Source of the DNA: an uncultured Parabacteroides sp.
Lineage (GTDB): Bacteria; Bacteroidota; Bacteroidia; Bacteroidales; Tannerellaceae
DNA: 64,000 nucleotides
Reading direction: 5' to 3'
Assembly (NCBI GenBank): GCA_934725305.1
Contig: CAKVBA010000008.1
Span: 10,799 to 74,798 of the forward strand
Shown: positions 18,470-24,140 of the stretch, piece after piece
Position numbering within the stretch: position 1 is the stretch's first letter
Layout: each line of letters starts with the position of its first letter
Made by a program: the position numbers and the translations under genes
Notes under the pieces: model-generated
Seen by the model: the letters and a program-made list of their open reading frames with translations, nothing else
Database searches by the model: none
Told to the model about the DNA's origin: nothing

Positions 18470-18811
18470 TTATTGTAATTTTAGCAGGGTCAAAATTCGT
18501 TAGAAGCGGATAACAAATCCGCCGGAAGTGATAGATGAATCCGCCGGAATTGGCAGGTAAATACGGTTCGCCCCAAGCCTACTTTTAGAATGATTACAGC
18601 CTGTTTATCAAGGGGCTATAGACTTCCTGAGATTACTCTATAGACTTTCCGAAAAAAGGGTATAGACTTTTTTGAAAATGGGTAGGCACTCCGTTCGGAT
18701 TGGGTAGGCACTCCGCTGGAAAGGAATAGGCACCCAATTTCCGAAAATAGCCTACTCCGTTTTGACAAGGTTAATGGATTCTCGGATTCTCATAGGCTTA
18801 TTGTGTTTTTT
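18470..18811 (+). repeat. 342-bp dispersed element, copy 1
   Basis: Begins TTATTGTAATTTT and ends TTATTGTGTTTTT, the same direct-repeat boundary as the copies at 30286-30627 and 48076-48419. Inside are paired CCGCCGG blocks (18520-18560) and then degenerate units of about 22 nt built on GGGTAGGCACTCCGTT. No open reading frame of note. The stretch from here to 18871 is otherwise empty. Confidence 0.75.
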
Positions 18812-18871: not shown

Positions 18872-18909
18872 CGCAACTATATACTTTATTGTACCAACGG
18901 TTTTGTATA
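18872..18909 (+). repeat. left inverted repeat of the island
   Basis: CGCAACTATATACTTTATTG followed by TACCAACGGTTTTGTATA. Positions 18876-18909 are a perfect inverted match to 23593-23626. The site has inverted arms itself (AACTATA ... TATAGTT, 18875-18912), a layout like a tyrosine-recombinase core site. Confidence 0.85.
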
Positions 18910-19180
18910 GTTACTGGTTTATTAAGTCATAAAAATGCATATCTAACAGATTGCTTTAATTATGTGTGCACCTTTCATACAAAAATAGATTATTCGTTTT
19001 CACAAACAACCTATTTCATCAGAAAGAAGATGCAATCTTTTAAGAAAATTGCATATCTTTACAATCCAAATAACGGAACAACCAAAAACGAAGAATTTTC
19101 TTTTTCTATATCATACAGCCCTAAGTGAAAGGTGCGAACTCATTAGCTTCGGCTCGATACATAGTAGATAGACTCTTCGG

Positions 19181-19202
19181 ACATTAGATATAAATCTAAT
19201 GT
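19181..19202. terminator. hairpin between the island edge and the 109-residue gene
   Basis: ACATTAGAT (19181-19189) pairs perfectly with ATCTAATGT (19194-19202), 4-nt loop, followed by TTTT on the plus strand. It may end minus-strand transcription from the adjacent gene. The 280 bp between the left inverted repeat and this hairpin hold nothing I can support. Confidence 0.45.
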
Positions 19203-19245
19203 TTTGAATTGTTCCGTTTGTTTTTGTTTATTCAATAATACTTAA

Positions 19246-19575
19246 CTATTGTCTTTCAGTTTTCCTCCAAAACAAGAACTCCCTTCCTCCTTTCTCCAAC
19301 TCAAACCTCACGAGAAACTCATTCACTGTATCCGTTTCGTAGACAGTAACAATCCCTGACACCAATTCTATTTCTTTAATCAGTTTGCAATCCCTTTCAA
19401 GATACGACATGACTTCGCCCCATATCTCATTGTCATAGTCCGCAGTATAGGAAATCTCGTTATTGCCATAATATTCTTTGAGAATGTCACGGAGTTCTGA
19501 ATTTCCTATCTTGTCGAAAGTACACGAGGATATAGGGTGAAGTTCTACAGATTCAGTAAGTATGTAACGCTTCAT
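19246..19575 (-). CDS. hypothetical protein, 109 residues
   Basis: Not recognised. It is a small acidic, soluble-looking protein starting MKRYILTESVEL, with no signal peptide or membrane segment and an alternating hydrophobic pattern in its last third (VTVYETDTVNEFLVRFEL) suggesting beta strands. It lies divergent from the transposase inside the island, with a hairpin just beyond its 3' end. Codon use looks compatible with a real gene, but the assignment rests only on an intact frame and its placement. Confidence 0.55.
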   Translation of the reverse strand: MKRYILTESVELHPISSCTFDKIGNSELRDILKEYYGNNEISYTADYDNEIWGEVMSYLERDCKLIKEIELVSGIVTVYETDTVNEFLVRFELEKGGREFLFWRKTERQ

Positions 19576-19679
19576 ATTTTATCAGTTAGGATTGATAGAA
19601 TATGTATTGCAGAATTTAAATCCACCCTCTAATGATTTTTAACATTTGAAATGCAAATTCCGCACAGTTGCGAGTATAA

Positions 19680-19734
19680 TTCACTATACCGATTAATAAT
19701 CGGTTAGTGAATACACAAGCCAACGAGTTGGCTT
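19680..19734. promoter_or_regulatory. paired palindromes upstream of the transposase
   Basis: TTCACTA...CCGATTA pairs with TAATCGG...TAGTGAA (19680-19711). A second perfect palindrome, AAGCCAACGAGTTGGCTT, follows at 19717-19734, ending 34 bp before the transposase ATG. These could limit read-through into the transposase or bind the transposase; the function is inferred only. Confidence 0.4.
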
Positions 19735-19768
19735 TAATTGCTCAAAACAAATAAATCGAGAATTAACT

Positions 19769-20701
19769 ATGGCAACATTCCATTCATTACTTCAGATGAT
19801 GGATACGCTGCATACCGAAGAGGATTGCAGGGTATATCTGGAGAATATGCGTTGGAATGGAAAACCGATTTGTCCGCATTGCGGTTCTATCTCTGAACAT
19901 CACTACAAACTTACTAAAAATGGGGAATTCAAAGGACTATACAAATGCAAGGACTGCCGTTGCAGGTTCACCGTAAGGCAAGGAACGATGTTTGAGAGTT
20001 CAAACTTGCCGCTCAAAAAGTGGTTCTATGCGATTTATCTGTTCCTCTCGCACAAGAAAGGCATAAGCAGTTGCCAGTTGGCGAAAGACATTCAGGTGAC
20101 GCAGAAAACCGCATGGTTCATGCTGCATCGTATTCGTCACAATGTGAGGGATGATGACGCACATTTTGACGATATGACACAAATGGATGAAACCTATATG
20201 GGTGGCAAAACGCGCCATCATGGAAAAGGAACACAAGGACGTTCCTTGAAGGATAAGACACCGATATTCGGCATGGTCTCTAACGGTCTTGTATATGCAC
20301 AAGTAGTTCCGAATGTTCAAAGAAAAACGTTGTTTTCTATCATTGAAGAAAAAGTACGTAAAGGTTCAACCGTCATAACGGACGACCTGAATGTCTATGA
20401 CACTTTGTATGAGAACTATGAACATAAAACCATTCAACACGGCAGGCACATTTATGCCGCAGACGGCTATCATACGAACTCGATAGAGGGATTTTGGAGT
20501 CATATCAAACGAGGCATAAAAGGTATTTATCATCTTGCAAGTCCGAAGCACTTGCAGAAGTATTGCAAAGAATTCGTTTTCCGTTACAATACAAGGAAGC
20601 AAACTGATACAGATCGTTTCAACGATTTCTTGGGAAGTTTTACGGAACGTCTGTATTACGGCGAACTTCTGATGAAACCTGAATGGAGGATTATCGGATA
20701 A
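19769..20701 (+). CDS. IS1595-family (ISXO2-like) transposase
   Basis: DDE/N-type transposase of 310 residues. An N-terminal zinc ribbon has C35-x2-C38 and C60-x2-C63 (ICPHCGS, KCKDCRC). The ISXO2-like catalytic domain has Asp140 in QMDETYMGGK, Asp205/206 in ITDDLNVY, and Asn237/Glu240 in HTNSIEGFWSHIKRGI. The frame is intact and of normal length, so it may be active. I could not find the element's own short terminal repeats next to the gene; the only clear inverted repeats are the distant ones at 18872 and 23593, so the transposase may serve the whole island. Confidence 0.95.
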   Translation: MATFHSLLQMMDTLHTEEDCRVYLENMRWNGKPICPHCGSISEHHYKLTKNGEFKGLYKCKDCRCRFTVRQGTMFESSNLPLKKWFYAIYLFLSHKKGISSCQLAKDIQVTQKTAWFMLHRIRHNVRDDDAHFDDMTQMDETYMGGKTRHHGKGTQGRSLKDKTPIFGMVSNGLVYAQVVPNVQRKTLFSIIEEKVRKGSTVITDDLNVYDTLYENYEHKTIQHGRHIYAADGYHTNSIEGFWSHIKRGIKGIYHLASPKHLQKYCKEFVFRYNTRKQTDTDRFNDFLGSFTERLYYGELLMKPEWRIIG

Positions 20702-20717
20702 TCTAAATTCAAACAAG

Positions 20718-20753
20718 AAAGTCCAATCATGCTTACGTGTGGTTGGACTTTTT
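20718..20753 (+). terminator. terminator of the transposase gene
   Basis: AAAGTCCAA (20718-20726) pairs with TTGGACTTT (20743-20751), followed by a short T run. It ends just before a separate promoter for the downstream operon. Confidence 0.8.
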
Positions 20754-20861
20754 ATGCTTATAACTTAATATATGTAGGTCATTGTTCCTAAATTTGTTTG
20801 GCAGTCTGCGTTATTGTCTCGGATTTCTTTGTCCAATTCGCTCTTTTTCTTTAGTTTTGCA

Positions 20862-20869
20862 ACCGAACC
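20862..20869 (+). promoter_or_regulatory. promoter (-7 box) of the island operon
   Basis: TAgtTTTG matches the Bacteroidota -7 box and is followed by GC. The -33 region is weak (TTCG at 20837-20840). Transcription from here would give a leader of roughly 200-290 nt containing the rod-shaped RNA before the nuclease gene. Confidence 0.45.
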
Positions 20870-20946
20870 AAAGTAAAAAGGAGGTTAGAAACAGACATAA
20901 GAAATTAGAAGACATATTGCAAGCGACTTGTAGACAAGTTATTTGG

Positions 20947-21074
20947 CTTAGCTGAATCTGGTAAATTTACGTGAAGTTCCAAGTAATAAGTCGAAAGGTA
21001 GGTTTGTACCCTGCAAAGGGCACAGACTGCTTTTCCTTATTTGAACTTCAAGGTTTTACCAGAACCCAGCTAAG
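20947..21074 (+). ncRNA. rod-shaped structured leader RNA
   Basis: Nested complementary arms fold into a long rod: CTTAGCTG (20947-20954) with CAGCTAAG (21067-21074); TCTGGTAAA (20957-20965) with TTTACCAGA (21055-21063); TGAAGTTC (20972-20979) with GAACTTCA (21043-21050); AATAAG (20985-20990) with CTTATT (21036-21041). The apex holds smaller hairpins (GGTA...TACC, CCC...GGG). It lies between a promoter and the nuclease gene. It fits no RNA family I can name; no reverse transcriptase is nearby, so it is not an obvious retron. Confidence 0.45.
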
Positions 21075-21164
21075 AGAATGAGCGAAAAGACAAGGCTGTG
21101 TCCTTTTTCTTTTGCTCCGTTTGCAGGAACAACAATATGGTATAAACCTTATAAGCTCAAAGAT

Positions 21165-22028
21165 ATGGATTACAAGTTGGAATATATGGAACGTCTGTTT
21201 GCCAAGATTGGCAAGAAAAAGACGGAATCCTATGTCATAAGCCGGATATGGCATCAGTTGGATGATGACCGTGTGAAGTTTGTCGTCCAGCAATACATCA
21301 GAAGAACGCAAGACAAGTATGCGCTTGCGGACTTGTACCTACCTCAACTCAATATCTTCATTGAAATCAACGAGCCTTTCCATAAAAACAATGTGGAGGT
21401 TGATAAAATCCGCAATGAGGAAATTCTAAGCGTCACACGCTCCAAGCCCATCGTCATAGACTGTGACAATGACATTCAAGAAATCCACCGTCAGGTTACA
21501 GATGTCGTAAAACTCATCAAGCAACGTATTTCAGCACTCAGCGACAAATTCAAACCGTGGGATGATGCAAGCACGCTCACCGTTAAATACCACCGAAACA
21601 AAGGTTATCTAAAAGTAGAGGACAACGAGTGTTTGCGTACCACGGAAGAAGTTGCGGAAGTGTTCAGCACGAAAGCCAAACACCGTGGATTCCTGCGTGC
21701 TTCGGGTGCTGCCATCCCCAATAAAAAGCATGAAATAGTTTGGTGGCCGAACACGGAACACCGCCTTTGGCACAACAAACTCTCGGAGGATGGAATGTTT
21801 ATCTACGAATACCCGAAAGCGGAGGACAAACGTGCAGCACATCTGAAACAATGGCTTTCCGCTCCCGAAGAAACACGAATTACATTCCTGCGGTACAAAG
21901 ATGATTTAGGCTTTTGTTTCTACCGCTTCGTAGGAGTGTTCCGTCTCAATAGGGAGAAATCTATTCAAGAAAACAAATGTGTTTGGGAGCGTGTCTCGGA
22001 TACTTATCAACTTCATATCTTACCATGA
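21165..22028 (+). CDS. PvuRts1I/AbaSI-like modification-dependent restriction endonuclease
   Basis: Predicted type IV-style nuclease of 287 residues that would cut DNA containing 5-hydroxymethyl- or glucosyl-hydroxymethyl-cytosine, as known for PvuRts1I and AbaSI. The N-terminal Vsr-like nuclease domain has VQQYI followed by D56-LYLPQLNIFIE67 and NEPFH73, the same order as the AbaSI catalytic segment. The C-terminal SRA-like half has WWPNTEHRLWHNKLSEDG and the YRFVGVFRLNR strand followed by CVWERVSDTYQL. The start at 21165 gives the family's usual length (about 290); the frame is open to 21078. The gene overlaps the next by ATGA. The assignment is from remembered family motifs, not a search. 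Confidence 0.75.
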   Translation: MDYKLEYMERLFAKIGKKKTESYVISRIWHQLDDDRVKFVVQQYIRRTQDKYALADLYLPQLNIFIEINEPFHKNNVEVDKIRNEEILSVTRSKPIVIDCDNDIQEIHRQVTDVVKLIKQRISALSDKFKPWDDASTLTVKYHRNKGYLKVEDNECLRTTEEVAEVFSTKAKHRGFLRASGAAIPNKKHEIVWWPNTEHRLWHNKLSEDGMFIYEYPKAEDKRAAHLKQWLSAPEETRITFLRYKDDLGFCFYRFVGVFRLNREKSIQENKCVWERVSDTYQLHILP

Positions 22029-22267
22029 GTAAAGAATACTATAAGAGACGAATCATAGACCTTCGAGCTTCGATTGCTAAGGAACGAGAAGCCAAGAAAA
22101 AGGATAATGCCTATTATGCGAACTTGATAAAAAAGGCTTCCACTCCATCAAGTAAGGCTAACTACCGTAAATCAAAGGTTGATAGAGCTGCCTCTCATGA
22201 CAGGCGCATAGAAAGCCTTAAACGGGATATTGAGAATGCAAAAGCCTCTCTGAAAAGGAGTAAATAA
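22025..22267 (+). CDS. hypothetical small basic helical protein, 80 residues
   Basis: Not recognised. Lys/Arg-rich with heptad-like spacing across nearly the whole length (KEYYKRRIIDLRASIAKERE ... RRIESLKRDIENAKASLKRS), so probably a coiled coil, perhaps binding nucleic acid or a partner. Its ATG overlaps the nuclease stop codon (ATGA), indicating translational coupling and an operon. The next gene starts 21 bp later. Confidence 0.7.
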   Translation: MSKEYYKRRIIDLRASIAKEREAKKKDNAYYANLIKKASTPSSKANYRKSKVDRAASHDRRIESLKRDIENAKASLKRSK

Positions 22268-22288
22268 ACAATTAAAAATAGAAGAAAA

Positions 22289-23149
22289 ATGGGAATCATA
22301 AACAATTTAATCAACTCATTAAAAGACAATTTTACTATGGCTGAATTTAGCATTAATGGCCGCATGACGGTCAAGAGTCTGAGAAAACAATTCAAGGACG
22401 CATTCGGTGCAAGTTTACGTGTGTACAAAGGAGCTAAATTTGCTCCGGAGGATGCAACTCTTGCATCTATCCGCAGCGGAGAAAATGTAAAGGGTGGAGA
22501 ACTTGTATGTAAGGGAAATCTGCAAGTCGGTAATTTTGAAGCCAAGATGAAAGAGATGTTTGGAATAACTGTGAAGGTGGCAAATCCTGACAACACAAAG
22601 TTGGCAAGCAGCAGTATGACTATTGCAGCGGCAGGACGTGAAGCTGTGGCAACCGATGATTGGAGCAATGAACAGCTGCAATGCTACTTTTGGGACACAT
22701 TGCAGGATTTGCTTATAACCAAAGGATATGATATCGAAAAGAAAGACTTTGTGCAAGACGTTGAAGATTACTATAAAAGTAACCGATATAAACGTTATGG
22801 CGTGACATTCAATATCTACCGAACTAAGAAAAAGAAGGATGTCACATTCACAATCTATGCTTTAGAAAAATATGTTTACGGTATAAGATATAGTGGCGAT
22901 GTAGCCAAAGACAAAGAACTGGAGGCTGCGATAGATGGGGTAGATCCATTGATTAGTCTAAACGAAAATTGGGCAGGTTTTGGTGGTCCATCTCCTCGCT
23001 ATGAAGTAAACTTCAAGAAAATGGACACGGAAGGAATTGGCAAATTGAAAAATCCTACCGCCCGTGCCGCGTTCATGAATGGTGTTGCCAATGAAATAGA
23101 CGCAGTGATAAAGAAATTAGTGGAAGCATTCAAAAATAAAGGACTGTAA
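22289..23149 (+). CDS. hypothetical protein with tandem N-terminal repeat, 286 residues
   Basis: Function unknown. The N-terminal 115 residues look like an internal duplication: NGRMTVKSLRKQFKDAFG and KGNLQVGNFEAKMKEMFG align, each followed by a short strand (SLRVYKG, TVKVANP). The C-terminal half (about 125-286) has an aromatic helix (QLQCYFWDTLQDLL) and alternating strands (VTFNIYRTKKKKDVTFTIYA). No membrane segment or catalytic motif that I recognise. An internal ATG at 22337 (MAEFSING) is an alternative start. It is third in the nuclease operon; a defence-related or accessory role is inferred only from context. Confidence 0.75.
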   Translation: MGIINNLINSLKDNFTMAEFSINGRMTVKSLRKQFKDAFGASLRVYKGAKFAPEDATLASIRSGENVKGGELVCKGNLQVGNFEAKMKEMFGITVKVANPDNTKLASSSMTIAAAGREAVATDDWSNEQLQCYFWDTLQDLLITKGYDIEKKDFVQDVEDYYKSNRYKRYGVTFNIYRTKKKKDVTFTIYALEKYVYGIRYSGDVAKDKELEAAIDGVDPLISLNENWAGFGGPSPRYEVNFKKMDTEGIGKLKNPTARAAFMNGVANEIDAVIKKLVEAFKNKGL

Positions 23150-23157
23150 TGTAGCCT

Positions 23158-23289
23158 ATGGGACTTGGTAAATGGGGATGCTTGGGCATAATCCTATACA
23201 TGTGCAGGAACATTATTTCTAATATTCTTTATATCCTCTTTTGGGGACTGGTGGCATTCATCTGTTACGCAATAGTATATTGGTTATGA
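23158..23289 (+). CDS. 43-residue single-pass membrane peptide
   Basis: Short gene reading MGLGKWGCLGIILYMC and continuing through an almost unbroken hydrophobic stretch (NILYILFWGLVAFICYAIVY) to the stop at 23287-23289. It starts 8 bp after the 286-residue gene and its stop overlaps the next start as ATGA. Such overlap on both sides supports a real operon member. Small membrane peptides in defence operons can act as toxins or membrane sensors, but nothing here proves that role. Confidence 0.5.
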   Translation: MGLGKWGCLGIILYMCRNIISNILYILFWGLVAFICYAIVYWL

Positions 23290-23447
23290 AGATACGCGGA
23301 TTAAGTTTCTCTTGGAAAAGAGCGGTTGGCATAACGGCTGCCAAACAAAAGATTAGCCGAAAGACGGGAATACCTACAACCAAACAGGGTTTGGAAAGGA
23401 AAGTAGGCAAGATGGTTCTTGATGCCATCTTTGGCAAAAAAAGATAA
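23286..23447 (+). CDS. hypothetical basic protein, 53 residues
   Basis: Not recognised. Very basic (MKIRGLSFSWKRAVGITAAK, then ISRKTGIPTTKQGLERKVGK), ending GKKR. It overlaps the membrane-peptide stop by ATGA, so both are probably made together. It is the last gene of the island operon, followed 13 bp later by a strong terminator. The frame is open upstream to 23241, but that longer start would run through the membrane-peptide gene. Confidence 0.6.
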   Translation: MKIRGLSFSWKRAVGITAAKQKISRKTGIPTTKQGLERKVGKMVLDAIFGKKR

Positions 23448-23460
23448 TTGTCAAAACTTC

Positions 23461-23500
23461 ATAAGAACAGCGGAAAGGAAAACTTTTCCGCTGTTCTTAT
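23461..23500 (+). terminator. terminator of the island operon
   Basis: ATAAGAACAGCGGAAA (23461-23476) pairs with TTTTCCGCTGTTCTTAT (23484-23500) around a short loop, followed by TTTC. Very stable; it closes the operon that begins near 20862. Confidence 0.85.
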
Positions 23501-23592
23501 TTCTGTGTAATTACTGGACCATCAACTGTAGATACAGTAGAAAATAAAGCAACTGTATATCTATGTTTCTTATGTTTAGAGCAAACCCTAAT

Positions 23593-23630
23593 TATACAAA
23601 ACCGTTGGTACAATAAAGTATATAGTCGCG
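23593..23630 (-). repeat. right inverted repeat of the island
   Basis: Inverted match to 18872-18909 (one mismatch over 38 bp, 34 bp perfect at 23593-23626). The adjoining 90 bp inside, back to the terminator, hold no gene. Confidence 0.85.
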
Positions 23631-23829: not shown

Positions 23830-24140
23830 CGTTGGGCAAGACGGGTAAGGCTGTTTTTGGAAAAGCTCGGCACCTTTTTGGAAAAAGGGCGCACCCTTTT
23901 TGGAAAAAGGACGGCATCTTTTTTTTAACGGCATTTGAGTGGTATTTAAATAGCGTTTAAACACGGTTTAAATAGCCTTCAAAAAGAAGGGTAAGAACTC
24001 TTGAAAAAATGGATAGGCACTCCGTTTGAATCGGGAAGACATAGGCATCCATTTTGAAAGGAATAACTACTCCGTTTGGAAAGAATAGTTAGTCCGTTTT
24101 TTTGACCTTATTATTGCCATTCTGCCAACGGGTAAACAAA
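23830..24140 (+). repeat. divergent copy of the 342-bp element
   Basis: Degenerate units (CACCTTTTTGGAAAAAGGGC, TAGGCACTCCGTTTGAATCG, TACTCCGTTTGGAAAG) resemble the 342-bp family, but the ends differ: this copy finishes CTTATTATTGCCATTCTGCC, as does the short copy at 43770-43885. It reaches to within 15 bp of the following glycosyltransferase start. No gene lies in 23631-24150. Confidence 0.6.

Follow-up and report, generated by a model that had tools for sequence, protein, structure and literature searches.

A 4.76-kb block at positions 18872–23630 of a 64,000-nucleotide stretch of DNA from an uncultured Parabacteroides sp. (GenBank assembly GCA_934725305.1, contig CAKVBA010000008.1; this whole stretch is called the window below) has, judged by its sequence, the anatomy of an IS1595-family transposon and belongs to a real transposon family. 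Its cargo is an operon led by a predicted modification-dependent endonuclease of the PvuRts1I/AbaSI type, and a structured leader RNA that likely works as a transcription switch (attenuator) precedes the operon. We think it reasonably probable that the reading holds as a whole, i.e., an IS1595-family transposon with a PvuRts1I/AbaSI-type nuclease as cargo, an attenuator leader and accessory companion genes. A transposon family with a presumed restriction cargo is of a known kind; the leader RNA is the part for which no description was found in Rfam 15 or in the literature searched.

Results

The transposon and its relatives

The block is bounded by 38-bp inverted repeats (18872–18909 and 23593–23630) that are identical at 37 of 38 positions with a single perfect run of 34, the same figures as in an initial annotation made from the sequence alone. 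The repeats enclose a transposase of the IS1595 family, a structured RNA and an operon of five genes, the nuclease gene being the first (coordinates in Table 1). The DDE transposase named in that annotation is of the IS1595 type (PF12762, PF12760 and NF033547), and the operon's open reading frames (ORFs) are as it described them, coding for 287, 80, 286, 43 and 53 residues and linked by short gaps or ATGA overlaps (nuclease/p80 and p43/p53). Its structured RNA was recovered as well: its folding energy is −86.8 kcal/mol, compared with a mean of −63.8 for shuffled sequences (z-score −4.9), and none of 100 shuffles was as good. The strong terminator it proposed stood in part, as a 16-bp perfect hairpin at 23461–23500 with a weak T-run.

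GTDB genomes were scanned with an alignment of p286, the third operon gene product, as bait. This gave 28 loci, 17 of which (L001–L017) contain full-length p286; in the remaining 11 the match is confined to the N-terminal part of the protein. A 40-bp end consensus, searched with up to 13 mismatches allowed, was found on both sides of the operon in L006, L008, L010, L012, L016 and L017 (six of the 17) as well as in the window, and on one side only in L001, L009 and L015. Such recurrence of the end sequence around the same operon in six other loci is beyond chance. Transposase sequence is present in seven of the 17 loci (partial in L006 and L014). L008 contains a non-autonomous form of 3430 bp (L008:6854–10283) that has both ends and the operon and no transposase match. 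Comparison of the flanks of the seven two-ended elements found no nucleotide similarity between elements, the sole match being that of the window's two flanks with each other. Perfect 8-bp duplications were found in L012 and L016. The L016 element has an RseC-like gene on one side and a YraN-like gene on the other (names assigned by eye); in three congeners these genes are 148–155 bp apart and the element is absent (the search covered eight congeneric genomes, L016's own included, and in the stretches read from the others no more than one of the two genes is present). For the window flanks, the nearest homolog among 198 genomes is 64% identical. Because the same ends surround the same operon in unrelated flanks, two elements have 8-bp duplications, and the genes flanking the L016 element are adjacent in three congeners, mobility is supported for the element family by comparison. 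We infer it for the window copy.

A third element subtype was seen at L129:4445–9946. It has related 31-nt ends (90%), transposase pieces and a weak RNA match, together with a nuclease with 37% identity and a 456-aa gene whose similarity to a type IV restriction model is weak. L006 contains an extra gene near its right end (L006:10268–10627) with a weak GIY-YIG match below the Pfam cut-off.

The nuclease

The first operon gene had been placed in the PvuRts1I/AbaSI family, and its domains, its PADLOC class and its solved relatives all agree. The N-terminal PvuRts1I-like nuclease domain and the C-terminal SRA-like domain are both present, PADLOC classes the protein as a modification-directed enzyme, and the solved relatives are AbaSI (6e-37) and PvuRts1I (3e-30). 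PMC4027163 gives Glu20, Asp57, Glu68, Glu71 and Lys17 as catalytic residues of PvuRts1I and Trp205, Pro207, Trp215, Asn217 and Glu228 as its pocket. In an alignment read by eye, the counterparts of these residues in the window nuclease are Glu21, Asp56, Glu67, Glu70 and Lys18 for catalysis, and Trp193, Pro195, Trp202, Asn204 and Glu215 for the pocket. All of them are invariant across 15 aligned close sequences, window included. Since both domains and all these published residues are kept, the enzyme is predicted to be of the PvuRts1I/AbaSI type and to cut DNA containing 5-hydroxymethylcytosine (5hmC) or glucosyl-5-hydroxymethylcytosine (5ghmC).

The nuclease is rare, being found in three of 393 Bacteroidales genomes at E 1e-10. 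A relative occurs in each of 49 plasmid records, always with less than 60% identity. In L001–L004, p80 is 80–90% identical to the window protein and the nuclease 77–89%; in the 12 loci L006–L017, p80 is 81–94% identical and the nuclease only 47–51%. The high p80 identity next to the low nuclease identity suggests that the nuclease was swapped within an otherwise stable operon.

The companion genes

At the 17 loci with full-length p286, the nuclease was found in 17 (contig-cut in L001), p53 in 17 and p80 in 16; p43 was detected in only five. The N-terminal module of p286 gave a structure model with a pLDDT (predicted local distance difference test score) of 88. Aligned stand-alone modules have no C-terminal di-glycine and end in AAGK/AAGR-like tails. 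Fold matches of the module are weak, and it is described here as weakly ubiquitin-like.

The companions may be accessory to the nuclease, or p80, p286, p43 and p53 may form a separate stress or envelope module to which the nuclease was joined by chance as a passenger. We regard the latter as a serious, if somewhat improbable, alternative. It would account for the distribution of p80, which occurs in 15 of the 393 genomes, 14 of them also with the p286 N-terminal module, against three genomes for the nuclease; for the OmpA, TerB, ion-channel and pyroglutamyl-peptidase domains that Pfam finds in one chromosomal cluster; and for the apparent exchange of the nuclease next to a conserved p80. It fits less well with the presence of the nuclease beside p286 and p53 at all 17 loci, across two nuclease lineages. 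In addition, L018 has a nuclease inside a chromosomal cluster. The preferred reading keeps the companions as a probable accessory complex of the nuclease.

Other chromosomal clusters with p80 and ubiquitin-like modules were observed at L122–L128 and L131–L133, some of them with p53, TerB, an OmpA-domain protein and an ion channel. Two OmpA-region proteins of such clusters match ZorB weakly.

The leader RNA

RNA similarity was detected in 15 of the 17 full-length-p286 loci. Alignment of 14 cassette leaders gave a consensus structure in which eight pairs are altered on both sides. A covariance model was built from the core of the cassette leaders and run on Bacteroidales and phylum-wide samples. 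It matches 65 of the 393 Bacteroidales genomes at E 0.001 (64 at 0.0001), compared with three for the nuclease, which shows that the RNA is not specific to the cassette; up to six copies occur per genome. In the phylum-wide sample it matches three of 148 genomes at 0.0001, one of which is a cassette genome. For family statistics, 62 matches scoring at least 43 bits were aligned by the model. In this alignment, which is fitted to the structure and hence biased toward it, 92.8% of cells pair (69.3% when shuffled, 39–44% when slid), and 45 of 46 pairs have both-side changes, with a covariation score of 0.501 compared with 0.148. Rfam 15 gave no match on the RNA at the gathering cut-off in the searched stretches, and permissive searches likewise gave no credible match. 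The leader belongs to a widespread Bacteroidales RNA family without an Rfam match, whose predicted structure is supported by covariation.

Among 59 RNAs with enough sequence, 57 have an ORF start on the same strand within 450 nt downstream, at a median gap of 82 nt (random positions: 694 of 1240). The genes behind the RNA are varied and include those for secreted proteins and lipoproteins, BspA-like repeats, a C5-methyltransferase-like gene, a dynamin-like GTPase and a Ter-type operon (names assigned by eye).

Beyond the long hairpin lies a distal strand similar to the 5' strand of P4, the apical hairpin, and after it comes a U-run. The window duplex between the P4 3' strand (21015–21034) and 21084–21107 has a predicted energy of −19.4 kcal/mol; two of 200 shuffles and two of 61 foreign tails were as good. 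In 57 of 67 RNAs the tail duplex is stronger than those of 190 or more of 200 dinucleotide shuffles, and TTT lies within 10 nt of the duplex end in 65 of 67 (L101 and L104, which have no real duplex in that test, are among them). In 60 of 62 RNAs, pairing with the RNA's own tail is stronger than pairing with the median foreign tail. Outside the common P4 type, GCGTGG(G/A), 22 of 36 own tails rank in the best tenth. This arrangement is what a terminator/antiterminator pair looks like, and we consider it likely that the leader works as an attenuator, the switching itself being read from the pairing.

The structure could instead be a small RNA in its own right, or a palindrome at the level of the DNA (e.g., a recombination site), that stands before accessory genes by chance, and we give this a low but appreciable probability. 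The hairpin is nearly symmetric, and the model also gives 29 bits when the window RNA is scored on its opposite strand, so weak model matches have to be read with care. The RNA precedes many unrelated genes in several copies per genome, and in an initial set of 20 RNA copies three lie less than 400 nt from the high end of their contig. Neither a palindrome nor a free small RNA readily explains the shared strand and short distance to the following ORF in 57 of 59 cases. The distal tail, moreover, co-varies with one P4 strand and is then followed by the U-run, which is sensible only for an RNA read in that direction. We keep the attenuator as the likely function of the leader.

A DUF805 RNA (RF03081) follows the leader RNA at a distance of about 50 nt, at L048:1689–1754 and 2653–2721 and at L050:704–773. 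This suggests that the two RNAs can be stacked in one leader, as seen in two genomes.

Other features of the element

In the window, a minus-strand ORF of 109 aa lies between the left end and the transposase. Neither this ORF nor the lack of an intact target-site duplication in the window was noted in the initial annotation. Minus-strand ORFs occupy the same position in other elements (L010:5746–6321, L012:5579–6127, L016:5471–6022 and L017:1062–1562), and the 109-aa window protein has no match in these four despite the shared position. An imperfect inverted repeat, AACGGAACAACCAAAAAC/GTTTTGAATTGTTCCGTT (18 nt, 83%), lies between the left end and this ORF (window 19072–19218). Related 22-nt units (GGGTAGGCACTCCG-like) were observed in the intergenic DNA flanking the element (window 18647–18741 and 23978–24078).

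Table 1. Positions in the window of the element's ends, genes and RNA features
Feature	Position	Strand	Basis or remark
Left terminal inverted repeat, 38 bp	18872..18909	+	37/38 identical to right end; end sequence recurs in other elements
109-aa ORF	19246..19575	-	No known family; no match in other elements
IS1595-family transposase, 310 aa	19769..20701	+	Zinc ribbon and DDE-type domain; PF12762 8e-38, PF12760 1e-13, NF033547 1e-58
Structured leader RNA region	20911..21128	+	Model core 20938–21090
Apical hairpin P4 of the RNA	20994..21034	+	3' strand 21015–21034 able to pair with distal tail
Distal tail strand and U-run, terminator-like	21084..21108	+	Alternative partner of P4 3' strand
Predicted PvuRts1I/AbaSI-type modification-dependent endonuclease, 287 aa	21165..22028	+	PF21598 3e-41, PF18491 1e-45; PADLOC mREase_II 1e-104
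p80, small charged protein	22025..22267	+	Probably a coiled coil (judged by eye); no family reaches the cut-off
p286	22289..23149	+	N-terminal module (residues ~17–117, weakly ubiquitin-like fold); C-terminal domain matching PADLOC candidate PDC-S26
p43, 43 aa, small hydrophobic, probable membrane protein	23158..23289	+	Sequence
p53, 53 aa, small basic protein	23286..23447	+	In 17/17 relatives
Operon terminator hairpin	23461..23500	+	16-bp perfect stem
Right terminal inverted repeat, 38 bp	23593..23630	-	37/38 identical to left end; end sequence recurs in other elements

Discussion

In the mechanism that we propose, the transposase would act on the 38-bp ends and produce 8-bp duplications. The nuclease likely cuts incoming phage DNA with hydroxymethyl- or glucosyl-hydroxymethylcytosine, as its family and residues suggest: the SRA-like domain would flip the modified cytosine and the PD-(D/E)XK domain would cut nearby. 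Because cutting would take place near a modified cytosine, host DNA would be spared without a partner methylase. In the long-hairpin fold of the leader, the 5' strand of P4 would hold the 3' strand and transcription would continue. Disturbance of this fold would let the distal strand, which nearly repeats the P4 5' strand and is followed by the U-run, pair with the P4 3' strand, and transcription would stop. The proteins p286, p80, p43 and p53 likely make up an accessory complex that derives from a cluster of chromosomal genes, and they may tether the nuclease or hold it in check; this is the weakest step. The anti-phage function of the cassette is presumed from the nuclease family.

Several observations weigh against this reading. 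The end consensus was not found at eight of the 17 loci (L002–L005, L007, L011, L013 and L014), where some contigs end early (L007 and L014 lose their left side to a contig end). The cassette thus also persists outside the transposon, and the operon is not tied to it. Only two of the seven two-ended elements have an intact duplication, and the window copy has no intact 8-bp target-site duplication (TTAATTAA and AAAAATAA agree at five of eight positions). In L002 the operon is present and the RNA was not detected. Ten of the 67 tail duplexes fall short of 190 of 200 shuffles; for four of them (L080, L101, L104 and L105) the alignment columns gave only two letters, and a tail and T-run are seen by eye, whereas the other six (L063, L064, L089, L114 and two in L078) are weaker than this threshold. 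Among the non-common P4 types, 14 of 36 own tails are outside the best tenth. The long-hairpin fold appears far more stable than the tail duplex alone, so switching would need a trigger. No common function is apparent among the genes that follow the RNA, the opposite strand also scores with the model, and the beta-grasp fold matches of the p286 module are weak. That the block is a fixed chromosomal islet with repeats unrelated to mobility would agree with the missing window duplication and the eight relatives without ends, and is nonetheless very improbable given the same ends on seven two-ended elements in unrelated flanks, the two duplications, the IS1595 transposase inside the block and the adjacency of the L016 flanking genes in three congeners.

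The observation behind the initial annotation is confirmed and its interpretation, a mobile anti-phage cassette with new components, is partly supported. Mobility is supported by the shared ends in unrelated flanks, the two duplications and L016, where a site with the element can be compared with sites lacking it. The genes do travel together as far as the nuclease, p80, p286 and p53 are concerned, p43 being the exception, and eight of the 17 relatives show no such ends. The companions did not first arise with this island: p80, p53 and the p286 N-terminal module also occur together in L018–L020 and in further chromosomal clusters.

A wider hypothesis, which we put forward tentatively and think rather unlikely to be right in full, is that strand-exchange attenuators form a new RNA class across the Bacteroidales, with this leader as its founding member in a cassette, and that they gate dozens of unrelated accessory operons by one shared signal. 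The restriction transposon would have adopted the leader so that the nuclease, along with an accessory complex based on a tandem module of ubiquitin fold resembling ISG15, switches on only with this signal, perhaps infection or envelope stress.

The element shows a route by which a predicted modification-dependent restriction enzyme could spread among Bacteroidales, namely a small self-contained transposon. Its covarying leader RNA, apparently missing from Rfam, is present in about one in six sampled Bacteroidales genomes, and the alternative strand predicts an early transcription stop at a defined U-run. The trigger of the leader could reveal a common signal behind many Bacteroidales accessory operons.

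IS1595-family elements duplicate 8 bp at the target, and some members carry passenger genes. The window element resembles them in its transposase with a zinc ribbon and IS1595 DDE domain and in its terminal inverted repeats; two relatives have the 8-bp duplication, of which the window copy shows five of eight positions. It differs in its cargo, a conserved, presumed modification-dependent restriction operon with a structured leader, and in having a derivative (L008) that keeps the same ends without a transposase match. Compared with Tn7-like transposons, it is smaller, relies on IS1595 machinery and has one conserved cargo type. It shares with the defense-carrying Tn7-like transposons of PMC8649781 the movement of a presumed defense operon by a transposon. 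The nuclease is like PvuRts1I and AbaSI (PDB 4oky, 4oq2 and 4par) in both domains and in all the catalytic and pocket residues given in PMC4027163, and unlike them is encoded with conserved companions, here on a transposon. Compared with ISG15 and ubiquitin-like proteins, including the Bacteroides fragilis ubiquitin 8hm1, the scores of p286 are weak and the aligned modules lack the C-terminal di-glycine. No Rfam 15 family matched the leader itself in the searched stretches; its nearest catalogued neighbor, DUF805 RNA, lies just downstream of the leader in L048 and L050 and not on it. In its position before the operon, its conserved structure and an alternative pairing that ends in a U-run, it resembles transcription attenuators and orphan riboswitch candidates.

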